Assembly (NCBI GenBank): GCA_019634195.1
Contig: JAHQVV010000071.1
Coordinates: 1 to 48,733, forward strand
From: Phycisphaeraceae bacterium
GTDB lineage: Bacteria > Planctomycetota > Phycisphaerae > Phycisphaerales > Phycisphaeraceae
DNA length: 48,733 nt
Direction of reading: 5' to 3'
In this document: piece after piece, positions 7,132 to 11,223 of the stretch
How the letters are laid out: each line of letters starts with the position of its first letter
How positions within the stretch are numbered: position 1 is the first letter of the stretch
Notes under the pieces: generated by a model
Seen by the model: the letters and a program-made list of their open reading frames with translations, nothing else
Told to the model about the DNA's origin: nothing
Database searches by the model: none
Position numbers and translations under genes: made by a program

Positions 7132-7208
7132 GTGTAGCGGGAGACGCGAAGCGTCCCGTGCGAAGCATCTCTCACAGCTCGAACGGGGACGCTTCGCGTC
7201 ACCCGCTA
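7132..7208. repeat. 77-bp palindromic repeat, GTGTAGCGGG family
   Basis: Left arm begins GTGTAGCGGGAGACGCGAAG, right arm ends CGCTTCGCGTCACCCGCTA. It lies between the convergent regulator and permease genes, where it could end transcription in both directions. The TGA stop of the permease (7201-7199 on the minus strand) lies within the right arm. Related copies are at 34973-35011 (half), 43702-43780, 45261-45339 and 45666-45742. Confidence 0.88.
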
Positions 7209-8551
7209 AACTGTTCTATCGGCGACCCCGACAGCATCTTCTTCCGCCGCTGTGTCTTGATCCGATTGATCACTTGCCGGCCGATCTCATCGATCATGAC
7301 GCCCAATAGCAGGACGACGCCGATGATGATGAACTCCCAATAGGTGGGCTGCTTGAGCAGGTTGATCGCGTTGTAGAGCGAGCGCATCACCGCGGTGCCG
7401 ATGATGACGCCCGCGATCGACCCGACCCCGCCCCGCAGGGAGCAGCCGCCGAGCACGGCCGCAGCGATGGCGTAGAGCTCGTAGAAGTTGCCATCGCCTG
7501 CCGGGGTCACCGACCCGATATCCAGTGCAAAGAGCGCCCCGCCCAGGGCAGCCAGTGTCGAGCACATCACGTAAGCGAGCAGCGTCATCTGCTTGGTGTT
7601 GATGCCCGAGAAGCGTGCGGCCTCCGCGTTACGCCCCATGGCCAGGAGGTAGCGCCCGGCCACGGTCTTGTGCAGCAGGACCGCGCTGAATAACGCTAAG
7701 ACCAGCAGGATCAGCATCGGCATCGGCAGCTCGACCCATCCCCAGAGCCCTTGTGATCCCTGCGCCGCATTGTCGCCGGTCGCGCTGATCTTGTTGATTA
7801 GCGGTACGGGTATTTCAATCGGCTTGCCGTTTGCGAAATAACGCAATGACGCATGATGCGGGCCGACCCCGACCGCCTCATCGCCGGACACCAGGCGCGC
7901 CAACCCGCGATACGCCATCAGCCCACAGAGCGTGACGACGAACGACTGCAACTTCATGTACCCGATCAATACACCGTGCAGTAGGCCGATCCCCGCGCCG
8001 ATCAGTAGTGTTAGCAACACCGCCAGCAGCGGGTGCATCAATCGCGATTGGTGTTCGAGTGTCGCAACCGATCCCAGCTCGACCCGGCGGACGTTGCTGC
8101 GTAAGACCAGTATCTTGTCGTTGTTTGTGGCTTGGGTCTTCGACTGATCGATCACGAGGGTGATGTCGTCGGCCGTTTTTTTGCTGGAGATCACCAGCCG
8201 ATCCAAGTCGCTGTAGCTTGGCACCGGCGCATCGAACGTAATGGTCTTGGTGTCCGGATCGATGCTGTTGACGCTGAGGGTGTGCCCGGAGTCGTAGTAG
8301 TTGACTTGGAGAAAGAGCATCAAGCAGACGCCGCTGAGCGCAACGACCGAGCCGATGGATAGGTCGATGCCGCCGGTGATGATGACGAAGGCAACGCCCA
8401 AACCAAGGATGCCAAACAGCGCGGTCCACCGCAGGAGGTTGGAGAGGTTCTGCGGGTCCACAAAGACGGGGTTGAGTGATGTGGTGATCACGCAGATCGC
8501 CAACAGCAGAATCGAGATGCCCAGGATGCGGGTGAGGCCTTGCAGAGTCAT
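7199..8551 (-). CDS. Ribose-type ABC transporter permease with extracytoplasmic insertion
   Basis: 450 residues, about 100 longer than RbsC-type permeases. The N-terminal region with GGIDLSIGSVVALSG (about 60-74) and the later GRNAEAARFSGI and GGCSLRGGVGSIAGVIIG segments are typical of this family of sugar permeases. Residues about 84-170 form a soluble, polar, beta-rich-looking insertion between two membrane segments, probably facing the periplasm. It is the last gene of a binding protein-ATPase-permease operon and begins 27 bp after the ATPase gene. The final residues are encoded by the dispersed repeat that supplies the stop codon. The substrate is probably a sugar, but its identity is unknown. 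Confidence 0.9.
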   Translation of the reverse strand: MTLQGLTRILGISILLLAICVITTSLNPVFVDPQNLSNLLRWTALFGILGLGVAFVIITGGIDLSIGSVVALSGVCLMLFLQVNYYDSGHTLSVNSIDPDTKTITFDAPVPSYSDLDRLVISSKKTADDITLVIDQSKTQATNNDKILVLRSNVRRVELGSVATLEHQSRLMHPLLAVLLTLLIGAGIGLLHGVLIGYMKLQSFVVTLCGLMAYRGLARLVSGDEAVGVGPHHASLRYFANGKPIEIPVPLINKISATGDNAAQGSQGLWGWVELPMPMLILLVLALFSAVLLHKTVAGRYLLAMGRNAEAARFSGINTKQMTLLAYVMCSTLAALGGALFALDIGSVTPAGDGNFYELYAIAAAVLGGCSLRGGVGSIAGVIIGTAVMRSLYNAINLLKQPTYWEFIIIGVVLLLGVMIDEIGRQVINRIKTQRRKKMLSGSPIEQFSG

Positions 8552-8578: not shown

Positions 8579-10093
8579 CTAAGCGGTTTGCGTTTGATGG
8601 GTATTCGTCGCCATGGCCATCACCGACTCGGCCGAGAGGCCCGCTCGGCCAAGCTCGCCGGTCATCTTGCCCTCGTGCATGACCAGGACGCGGTCCGCCA
8701 CGCCGAGCACCTCTTCCAGGTCGCTGGAGACGAACAGGATCGCGACGCCTTCGTGGGCCAATTCTTCCATGATGCGGTAGATCTCCGCCTTGGCGCCGAT
8801 ATCGACACCGCGCGTCGGCTCGTCCAGCAGCAGCACCTTCGGCTCGTTGGCCAGCCACTTGGCGAGCACGACTTTCTGCTGGTTGCCACCCGATAGGTTC
8901 CCGGCCAGTTGCTCAATAGTCGGCGCTTTGGTCGCGAGCTTGTCTTTCATCGACACGCCGAGTTCGCGTTCTTTGCGTGCATTGATGATGCCTGCCGTGG
9001 CGTCCTGACCCAGACGGGCCATGGAGGTGTTCTCGCGGATCGACATCGAGAGCACGACGCCCTGGGCTTTGCGGTCTTCGGGCACGAGCGCCAAGCCCGC
9101 AGCGATGGCCTGCTTCGGGTTACGGATGGCGATGGCGTTGCCTGCAATATGAATCGTCCCAGCCAGCGGCGGGTCGATGCCGAATAACGCCCGGAGCATC
9201 TCCGTCCGTCCCGCACCGACCAGGCCTGCGACGCCGACGATCTCTCCTGCCTTGACTTCAAGTGACAACCGGTGCTCGGGGAAGGCCTGCGTCGCCAGCC
9301 CGTCGACCTTCAGCACCGCGTCGCCGATGGGGCGGGGCTTGTACTGGTAGAGGTTCGAGGCATCGCGCCCGACCATGAGCTTGACCATCGCATCGTGATC
9401 GACCTCGTCGCGCGAAAGTTCGCCGGCGTTCTGCCCATCCCGCAAGACCGTGACGCGATGGGCCAGGCGTTTGACCTCTTCGAGGCGGTGGCTGATAAAG
9501 ATGATGCCCACGCCCTTCGCGGACAGGCGGTCGACGACGTCGTACAGCCGCTGCGTCTCTTTGTCGGAGAGCGACGCGGTCGGCTCGTCCATGATGATGA
9601 CGCGGGCGTTCGTGCTGATCGCTTTGGCGATCTCGACCATCTGTTGCCGGCCGGTGGAGAGCTCGGCAACGGGTGTCGTTGGCGGCAGGTCAAGCCCGAC
9701 TTCATCGAGCACTGCTTTTGCGCCGCGTAGCATCGCCTTGCGGTTGATCAGGCCAAGCCGTTTGGGCTCTCGGCCGAGGTAGATGTTCTGCGCGATATCG
9801 AGGTTGTCCGCGAGGTTGAGTTCCTGGTGGATCAGGGAGATGCCCAGCGACATCGCGTGCTGCACGCCTGTGAGTTCCGTGGGCACGCCGTCGATTAACA
9901 GCCCGCCGGCATCGGGGGTAACCAGCCCGGCGAGGGACTTCATGAGCGTGCTCTTGCCCGCGCCGTTCTCGCCGATAATCGCGAGGATCTCGCCTTTAGA
10001 TAGGTGCATCGATACCTTGTCCAGCGCAATCACGCCGGGATAGGCTTTGGAGATGCCTTGGGCTTGGAGTAGTGGGGCCTTTACAGGCGTCAT
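8579..10093 (-). CDS. Ribose-type ABC transporter ATPase with two ATP-binding domains (RbsA family)
   Basis: 504 residues, standard for RbsA/MglA/XylG. The first nucleotide-binding domain has Walker A GENGAGKST (41-49), a signature region LSTGRQQMVEIAKA and Walker B VIIMDEPTASL. The second has the degenerate Walker A typical of the family (GLVGAGRTEM), signature LSGGNQQKV and Walker B VLLLDEPTRGVD. It hydrolyses ATP at the cytoplasmic face to drive uptake through the adjacent permease. It sits 41 bp after the binding-protein gene and 27 bp before the permease gene, so the three form one operon. Confidence 0.95.
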   Translation of the reverse strand: MTPVKAPLLQAQGISKAYPGVIALDKVSMHLSKGEILAIIGENGAGKSTLMKSLAGLVTPDAGGLLIDGVPTELTGVQHAMSLGISLIHQELNLADNLDIAQNIYLGREPKRLGLINRKAMLRGAKAVLDEVGLDLPPTTPVAELSTGRQQMVEIAKAISTNARVIIMDEPTASLSDKETQRLYDVVDRLSAKGVGIIFISHRLEEVKRLAHRVTVLRDGQNAGELSRDEVDHDAMVKLMVGRDASNLYQYKPRPIGDAVLKVDGLATQAFPEHRLSLEVKAGEIVGVAGLVGAGRTEMLRALFGIDPPLAGTIHIAGNAIAIRNPKQAIAAGLALVPEDRKAQGVVLSMSIRENTSMARLGQDATAGIINARKERELGVSMKDKLATKAPTIEQLAGNLSGGNQQKVVLAKWLANEPKVLLLDEPTRGVDIGAKAEIYRIMEELAHEGVAILFVSSDLEEVLGVADRVLVMHEGKMTGELGRAGLSAESVMAMATNTHQTQTA

Positions 10094-10134: not shown

Positions 10135-11223
10135 TTATTCTTGTCCCAGCAATGCATCGATCACGCCCTGAGCGCGTTCACGGGCATTGGCCTGAGTGAG
10201 TTCACCGACAAAGATGACCACTTCGCCGCCGTCAGGTAGGTCCTTGGCCAGCAGCTCCCCGGCCTGCTTACCCGCAGCGAGGTTGTCGGTGCCCAGGTAA
10301 AACAGCCGGTCCGATTCATCGGCGTCCGAGTCCACCGCGATGACGCTCACCTTGCTGCACCACTCGTTCATCATCTCGACCTGCTCGTTGGGGTTGCGCA
10401 CAGAGATGGCGATCCCGTCAGCACCGTTGATGATGGCGGTGTCCACGTAACGCTTCTGCTCGGCGACCTTGCCATCGGGTGGCATGTAGACCGAGACTTC
10501 CGCGTTGAAGGCTTCGCCCGCCTTCTCGCAACCGCGTTCAGCGAGTTTCCAGAACGGGTCCCACACATTTGTCACGAAGTGGATATCGACCGATTGTGTT
10601 GTGTCGTATGCGCCCGCGTCGTAGGGCGGGATCGGGCCGGTGCCTTCGCGGATCGCAGCGACTTCACTGGAGAATGCCGACATGTTCTCTTCTGTGATCA
10701 CGCGGGTGGGCACGTACATGAGCCCGTTGGTAGGGACATCGATCGCCTGCTCGCGGATCGTCGCGGAGAGCAGTTCGACCGAGCGGAAGCCGAATTCATA
10801 CGGGTTCTGAACGACCGTTCCTAAAATCTTCCCTTCCTTGATCGCAGCAAGCGTATCGGGGTCTTCGTCGAAGCCGACGATGCTGACCTGGTCCAGGACG
10901 CCGCGTTTTTCGACGGCTTGAAGGATGGCTGGTGGGTTGTAGGCGTAGAGCCCCACCATGCCTTTGATGTTCGGGCTGGCCGAAAGCGCATCCTCTGCCT
11001 TCTGCAAGGCTTCGGTCTTACCCCGGTCGGTTCGGATACTAACGGTCCACTCAACGCCGGTGTCCGGGTTGGTGCGGGTGACAGCCGCATCGCGCGCCAT
11101 CTGCCAGGTGACCGGGCCGTCGGTGTTGGCTTCGCTGTCGCCGCTACCGCCGCAGCCCGTAAGGCTGAGCATCAAGGCGGGCAGGATCAGGGCGAGCGTT
11201 GCTTGCAGGCGTTGGCGCGTCAT
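10135..11223 (-). CDS. Sugar ABC transporter substrate-binding lipoprotein, apparently circularly permuted
   Basis: 362 residues from ATG 11223, with a lipoprotein signal peptide and lipobox LTGC (Cys24). Both halves of an RbsB-like type I periplasmic binding protein are present but in swapped order. Residues about 57-195 match what is normally the second half (GMVGLYAYNPPAILQAV, VSIVGFDEDPDTLAAI, GTVVQNPYEFGFRSVELL, MYVPTRVI). After a linker (195-211) come residues 212-362, which match the normal first half (VDIHFVTNVWDPFWKLAE, ADGIAISVRNP, VIAVDSDADESDR, GTDNLAAGKQAGELL, VVIFVGELTQANARERAQG), and the stop codon follows that helix. The frame is intact throughout, and the gene heads the operon with its ATPase and permease, so it is probably functional. 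The open frame continues upstream to 11991, but that part is antisense to ftsW. Confidence 0.88.
   Translation of the reverse strand: MTRQRLQATLALILPALMLSLTGCGGSGDSEANTDGPVTWQMARDAAVTRTNPDTGVEWTVSIRTDRGKTEALQKAEDALSASPNIKGMVGLYAYNPPAILQAVEKRGVLDQVSIVGFDEDPDTLAAIKEGKILGTVVQNPYEFGFRSVELLSATIREQAIDVPTNGLMYVPTRVITEENMSAFSSEVAAIREGTGPIPPYDAGAYDTTQSVDIHFVTNVWDPFWKLAERGCEKAGEAFNAEVSVYMPPDGKVAEQKRYVDTAIINGADGIAISVRNPNEQVEMMNEWCSKVSVIAVDSDADESDRLFYLGTDNLAAGKQAGELLAKDLPDGGEVVIFVGELTQANARERAQGVIDALLGQE

Follow-up and report, generated by a model that had tools for sequence, protein, structure and literature searches.

A circularly permuted sugar-binding lipoprotein of a CUT2-type ABC importer in Planctomycetota, with indications that its permutation recurs within the family

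The window analysed here, a 48,733-nucleotide stretch of DNA from a Phycisphaeraceae bacterium, encodes a sugar-binding lipoprotein whose canonical second half comes first and whose canonical first half comes last (Table 1). As the canonical order of the Peripla_BP_4 halves is absent, the protein is a permuted variant of the type I (cluster B) binding proteins. The swapped order itself is confirmed, since it lies far beyond chance and recurs in other genomes, and its interpretation as a natural circular permutation is supported. The fuller reading, in which a permuted and lipid-anchored binding protein with a rebuilt pocket serves a CUT2-type ABC importer, arose by duplication and is recurrent in its family, is very probably correct. 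The word "halves" denotes here the halves of the sequence and not the lobes of the fold; the C-terminal lobe presumably has its first strand-helix unit in the canonical first half.

Table 1. Positions of the binding-protein gene, its segments and its operon partners in the window, and of related loci in other genomes
Feature	Position	Strand	Basis
Binding-protein ORF, lipoprotein of 362 aa	11223..10135	minus	reading frame intact, from translation
Signal peptide and lipobox, residues 1-24 (...LSLTGC; Cys24)	11152..11223	minus	translation; lipobox scan
N-terminal tether and added hairpin, residues 25-57, before the permuted start	11053..11151	minus	AlphaFold model
Canonical second half, placed first, residues 58-192	10648..11052	minus	profile and phmmer order; conservation; model
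Linker from canonical C- to N-terminus, 18 residues (193-210), REGTGPIPPYDAGAYDTT	10594..10647	minus	between both half-profiles
Canonical first half, placed last, residues 211-362	10138..10593	minus	profiles, phmmer, model, conservation
ABC ATPase, two nucleotide-binding domains, sugar-importer type	8579..10093	minus	ABC_tran, two stretches
Permease BPD_transp_2 with insertion of about 85 residues near residues 83-165	7199..8551	minus	profile matches
Loci of the second permuted order (PC2)	L077:5813-7120 (G045); L078:5936-7660 (G218); L134, L135, L136
Binding protein of G196, window order (CN), distant subfamily	L084:1745-2902
Head-to-tail canonical pairs, possible precursors	L168-L173, L080

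The order of the halves is apparent from profile and pairwise searches. Pfam Peripla_BP_4 (PF13407) matches the protein in two stretches at E 1.4e-53, with 182.6 bits against a curated cut-off of 35.1, and in its best stretch residues 222-358 align with positions 10-147 of the 258 in the profile; profile-based annotation thus splits permuted proteins into two partial matches. The best stretches of the NCBIfam profiles for RbsB (184-282 of 295) and for the allose SBP (184-290 of 311) fall on residues 62-161 and 53-159, and that of the rhizopine SBP (3-152 of 289) falls on residues 214-358; the protein stays below the cut-off of all seven NCBIfam families matched. With phmmer, positions 9-151 of canonical 2qvc align with residues 218-359 and positions 162-251 with residues 64-153. 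The earlier note on this DNA had drawn the segments at 57-195 and 212-362 with a linker between them, which Pfam, NCBIfam and phmmer show to be correct within a few residues; the intact frame and well-placed signal peptide that it described are seen in the translation, which opens with the lipoprotein signal MTRQRLQATLALILPALMLSLTGC. Cys24 is invariant across six aligned same-order proteins, and the linker is weakly conserved among proteins of that order. Pocket motif residues are N96, D119, E120 and Q139 in the first-placed half and N219, F224, W225, D298, D300, R306, N346 and R350 in the last-placed half. We take these RbsB-type motifs at conserved positions to line the ligand pocket, the positions being matched at the level of motifs and not contact by contact. 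When 76 proteins of all three orders described below are aligned half by half, N219, F224, D298, D300, R306, N346, R350, F118, D119, E120 and Q139 are identical in 76 of 76, and W225 and N96 are kept in 74.

The predicted structure is consistent with this arrangement. An AlphaFold model from an alignment of six rows, which include three halves of canonical proteins, reaches a pLDDT of 88.2 and a pTM of 0.83, and the deposited structure 5er3 (2015) may be in the AlphaFold training set; with three sequences only, the pLDDT is 54.2. Residues 1-33 have a pLDDT below 50 and are followed by a helix (40-45) and strands at 48-51 and 58-64. In this confident model the predicted two-lobe fold is collinear with 5er3, the best PDB match by Foldseek (307 columns, TM 0.77/0.87, rmsd 2.5, 42% identity), so that the structure prediction proposed as a check recovers a same-order structure. 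The best-ranked canonical binding proteins match the model over about 150 columns, or one half, which is what a sequential aligner should give; among the matches listed, the longer canonical ones have an rmsd of about 9 or more. The new termini lie, in the model, between the helix at 344-359 (...NARERAQGVIDALLGQE) and the strand at 58-64. By the anatomy of RbsB and the DSSP assignment of the model, the cut would fall where the earlier note had put it, in a loop of the C-terminal lobe, which we take to be the one that connects the first helix to the second strand and faces away from the cleft.

The binding-protein gene is followed on the minus strand by genes for a two-domain ATPase and a BPD_transp_2 permease, the three together covering 11223-7199, which is the make-up of CUT2-type importers (RbsABC/AraFGH type). 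The best NCBIfam match of the ATPase is AraG (E 6.7e-173, under the AraG cut-off), and among the families listed (the best 25 of 194 for the ATPase) no NCBIfam cut-off is reached by the operon proteins. A single sigma-70-like site lies at 11296-11267, and shuffled sequences give 0.8 such sites. The permease insertion, at window positions 8057-8305, is absent from G002 of the same genus; long permeases also occur in G001 and in the canonical operons L081 and L083, and the insertion is thus independent of the permutation.

The same order, hereafter CN, is found in three of the four other genomes of the genus, namely G001 (one contig), G002 and G004, at 56-64% identity, which answers the search for same-order homologues in related genomes; the fourth, G003, gave no match. 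It is also present in two more genomes of the family (G023 and G027), in G081, which belongs to another family, and in G748 and G780, each assembled as a single contig. A profile of six same-order proteins, run on 392 sampled genomes of the phylum (E<=1e-40), matches 72 of them, and by coordinates 58 are canonical, 10 CN, two of the second permuted order (PC2) and two show one half only above the threshold. Where one half alone passed the threshold or the halves lay on separate contigs (G737, G041, G367), a contig end or the threshold itself accounts for it. Within the family of G552, 32 of 149 genomes match at E<=1e-75, a threshold passed there by no canonical-looking match, and by match span 29 of these are CN and three PC2. 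ATPase and permease genes adjoin the binding-protein gene in permuted and canonical loci alike, and a search of viral contigs found no relative. The window genome is a draft of 246 contigs, which might favour a misjoined contig or a binning error behind which the true order is canonical; the conserved order refutes such an assembly rearrangement, as it recurs at 56-64% identity within the genus, in the single-contig genomes and in the PDB construct 5er3, with the PC2 order too standing in a single-contig genome (G218), and the chance of a misjoin is next to nil. That the gene is a decaying or non-functional rearranged paralogue is a reading that might draw on its function being putative and on its being the sole match in the window genome, but the open frame, signal peptide, pocket residues and operon, together with an order kept across genera and families, make decay exceedingly improbable. 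The natural permutation kept beside its ATPase and permease, as proposed in the earlier note, is upheld by the order in relatives, the pocket residues, the 5ER3 crystal structure and the confident model.

The PC2 order consists of the second part of the canonical second half, the first half and the first part of the second half; its cut lies directly before the VKV(I/V)AFDE strand ((G/A)FDE motif), presumably again within a C-terminal-lobe loop that leads from a helix to a strand. It is found in five genomes, G045 and G218, from two families of the order, and G958, G975 and G1028, from the family of G552. The ATPase and permease stand beside the PC2 gene in four of the five, the contig of G1028 being only 4 kb long, and G045 and G218 encode the same transporter in a third order. 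A profile of the G045 and G218 proteins run against 301 genomes of the order (E<=1e-75) matches 48 genomes, of which two are PC2; in the other 46 the match covers only the first half and the beginning of the second, the pattern of canonical proteins. A single genus, g608, holds both a CN genome (G972) and a PC2 genome (G1028).

The number of origins was addressed with a tree of 76 proteins (50 canonical, 21 CN including 5er3, and five PC2) whose halves were set in a common order; distant or long-branch proteins (L014, L016, L017, L033, L034, L112) and cut-off genes (L043, L064) were excluded, duplicates from the same locus were collapsed, and E-value and coverage filters removed further distant homologues, including L084. 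CN proteins occupy four places in this tree and PC2 proteins two. The CN proteins do not form one clade: a grouping of all 21 is rejected by the AU test (p=8e-35), and by each half alone (p=1.3e-4 and 1.6e-4). A clade of the window group with L140 and L141, a grouping picked after the tree was seen, is rejected as well (p=1.6e-4; 3e-4 and 9e-4 by halves). For L005 and the pair L006 and L045, neither their mutual separation nor that from the main clade is firm, and the split between the two PC2 groups is not firm either (p=0.0105 for one clade with both halves, 0.175 and 0.046 by halves). The tree of the ATPases has poor resolution and is of no help on the number of origins. A chimera of two paralogues was considered and rejected: half-specific trees first put the halves of the main clade with different groups, and they take the same place without the outgroup and long-branch rows. 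A further CN protein, that of G196, belongs to a subfamily separate from the main family and is a permuted case among canonical kin. A search with it in 298 genomes of the class (E<=1e-20) matches 75, in which a span covering both halves in this manner is seen only for G196 itself and for G081, a main-family CN protein at 24% identity; 14 of 14 kin genes inspected, which come from eight of the matched genomes, are canonical, with identities by halves of 58% and 55% for the nearest.

These trees suggest that the same kind of permutation event took place more than once in this family; gain and reversal are indistinguishable from the trees, and the direction of the changes is thus a presumed one. 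A single ancient permutation in the main family, with later reversion of some lineages to the canonical order, would account for the identical cut loop in all CN proteins and for the position of L005, L006 and L045 close to the base of the family, and the first one-clade test, run on 16 CN proteins when L137-L141 were not yet included, was borderline (p=0.047). We nevertheless regard a single origin as unlikely, because one clade is rejected with 21 proteins and by each half, L140 and L141 sit among canonical proteins at up to 72% identity between orders, L141 retains both loop ends of its canonical kin, the G196 case lies in a different subfamily with canonical kin, and reversal requires at least an equal number of rearrangements. 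As for the route by which the repeated events would have come about, tandem duplication followed by loss of the outer halves is the most likely one: in a tandem pair the leading copy would lose its first half and the trailing copy its second, leaving the succession signal, second half, first half. This route fits the tandem canonical pairs and the split loop of L141. Head-to-tail canonical gene pairs are present in seven genomes, G022 in the main family and six of the 75 of the G196 subfamily (G282, G289, G302, G307, G326 and G340). The C-terminus of L141 (...VIDEVLDRSFDATRYDAP) and its mature start (...TLKNDKYEFLDTRTD) correspond to the two ends of a loop that canonical L114 keeps unbroken (VIDELMDRSHDNTRYDEPGKVIKNEKYTILDTR). 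Among the loci studied, neither a fused or half-trimmed intermediate nor a tandem pair beside a permuted gene was seen. Permutation by duplication is an established model, and fission and re-fusion of separately encoded halves is a described alternative (PMC3320104). The title of entry 7pu4 indicates a crystal that contains fragments of ribose-binding protein side by side, which would lend fission some plausibility; separately encoded halves were, however, not noticed in an unsystematic reading of the loci, the apparent split cases are those due to contig ends or threshold, and whole copies in tandem do occur, so that fission and re-fusion is rather improbable as compared with duplication.

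In functional terms, the 18-residue linker would bridge the canonical termini while the new termini, in a C-terminal-lobe loop between helix and strand, would stay off the cleft; the fold and the pocket would be rebuilt in the usual way and allow a Venus-flytrap closure on the ligand, and the closed protein would hand the ligand to the adjacent permease. The lipid anchor would then pull on the C-terminal lobe and not on the N-terminal lobe. We infer both the transport function and this effect of the anchor. The ligand is probably a glucose-like monosaccharide, because the nearest canonical solved relatives are the glucose-binding proteins of Thermotoga maritima; the neighbouring genes in ORF lists of eight loci, which give translation starts only, show no common sugar pathway. 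A lipobox is detected by script in 16 of 20 CN, four of five PC2 and 31 of 50 canonical proteins (5er3 excluded); read by eye from the same output, with kinship ignored, the counts are 19 of 19 CN proteins with a complete start (L003, whose start is lost at a contig end, being left out), five of five PC2 and 37 of 50 canonical. A link between lipoprotein anchoring and permutation is, on these sequence counts, suggestive only. In the canonical relatives L035, L036 and L117 the apparent anchor is an N-terminal hydrophobic helix and not a lipid. Permuted proteins of one family (L094-L097, L137) carry long Pro/Glu/Lys-rich C-terminal tails, with repeated EEAPK units in L095.

Natural circular permutations are in many cases known only from comparisons of distant families. 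In the present case, canonical and two permuted orders coexist in matching operons, the two permuted ones even in one genus, and this coexistence allows direct tests of how permutations arise, of passage through tandem duplicates and of anchor position in ABC importers. If the recurrence is true, the family is a natural experiment on the tolerance of proteins to cutting and rejoining. A bolder and rather doubtful reading holds that sugar-binding lipoproteins of Planctomycetota were permuted repeatedly from tandem copies, with cuts in two or more different C-terminal-lobe loops and repeated use of one of them, and were selected for an anchor on the other lobe; if true, it would be among the clearest natural cases of repeated and selected circular permutation. 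The open-licence papers searched yielded no report that permutation recurs in this family and, as judged by listings, no natural permuted type I binding protein other than Tp0684.

Among the closest known systems, 5ER3 (released 2015) is a solute-binding protein from Rhodopirellula baltica SH 1, an organism that we take to belong to another class of Planctomycetota. It has the same order (residues 60-361 on 32-332, E 1.9e-78), shares a clade with the window protein and is collinear with it in second half, linker and first half, from which it differs by being only 42% identical. Searching open-licence papers by its code gave no paper on the structure, and its permutation seems undescribed there. 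The statement of the earlier note that RbsB-like proteins run in the opposite order holds for the canonical kin, but the order is not unique to this gene, as 5ER3 had been deposited. Circular permutation is also known in another class of binding proteins (OpuAC). A permuted type I sugar-binding protein was already known, with a cut in the other lobe, and the window order was present, apparently undiscussed, in 5ER3. That earlier case is Tp0684 (TpMglB-2) of Treponema pallidum, a type I sugar-binding lipoprotein that is likewise circularly permuted, is assigned to a putative ABC importer, was proposed as "Type Ic / Cluster Bc" and is reported by its authors to bind D-glucose (PMC4990184). It is cut between strands 3 and 4 of the N-lobe (strand order 5-4-6-1-2-3) with the order of the C-lobe unaffected, and its authors suggest that permutation may suit tethered binding proteins (PMC4990184). 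Both proteins are permuted type I proteins, but the window protein is cut in the C-terminal lobe with the whole canonical first half moved, the trait of Type Ic / Cluster Bc, with the first three N-lobe strands at the C-terminus, is absent from it, and Foldseek matches it poorly to 5jx2 (Tp0684; TM 0.39, rmsd 10). The main text of PMC4990184 does not contain "Rhodopirellula", "Planctomycet" or "5ER3". For DNA methyltransferases, several permuted orders explained by duplication with documented intermediates are described (PMC3320104); these are unrelated enzymes and may serve as an evolutionary parallel only. Among canonical proteins the closest solved relatives are the Thermotoga maritima glucose-binding protein structures 2h3h, 2qvc and 3c6q (E 6e-35 to 2e-34), of which one half fits by fold and which, unlike the window protein, keep the canonical order. 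RbsB and the other cluster B proteins (PF13407) share with the window protein the domain family, the pocket motifs and the types of partner, and differ from it in the order of the halves.
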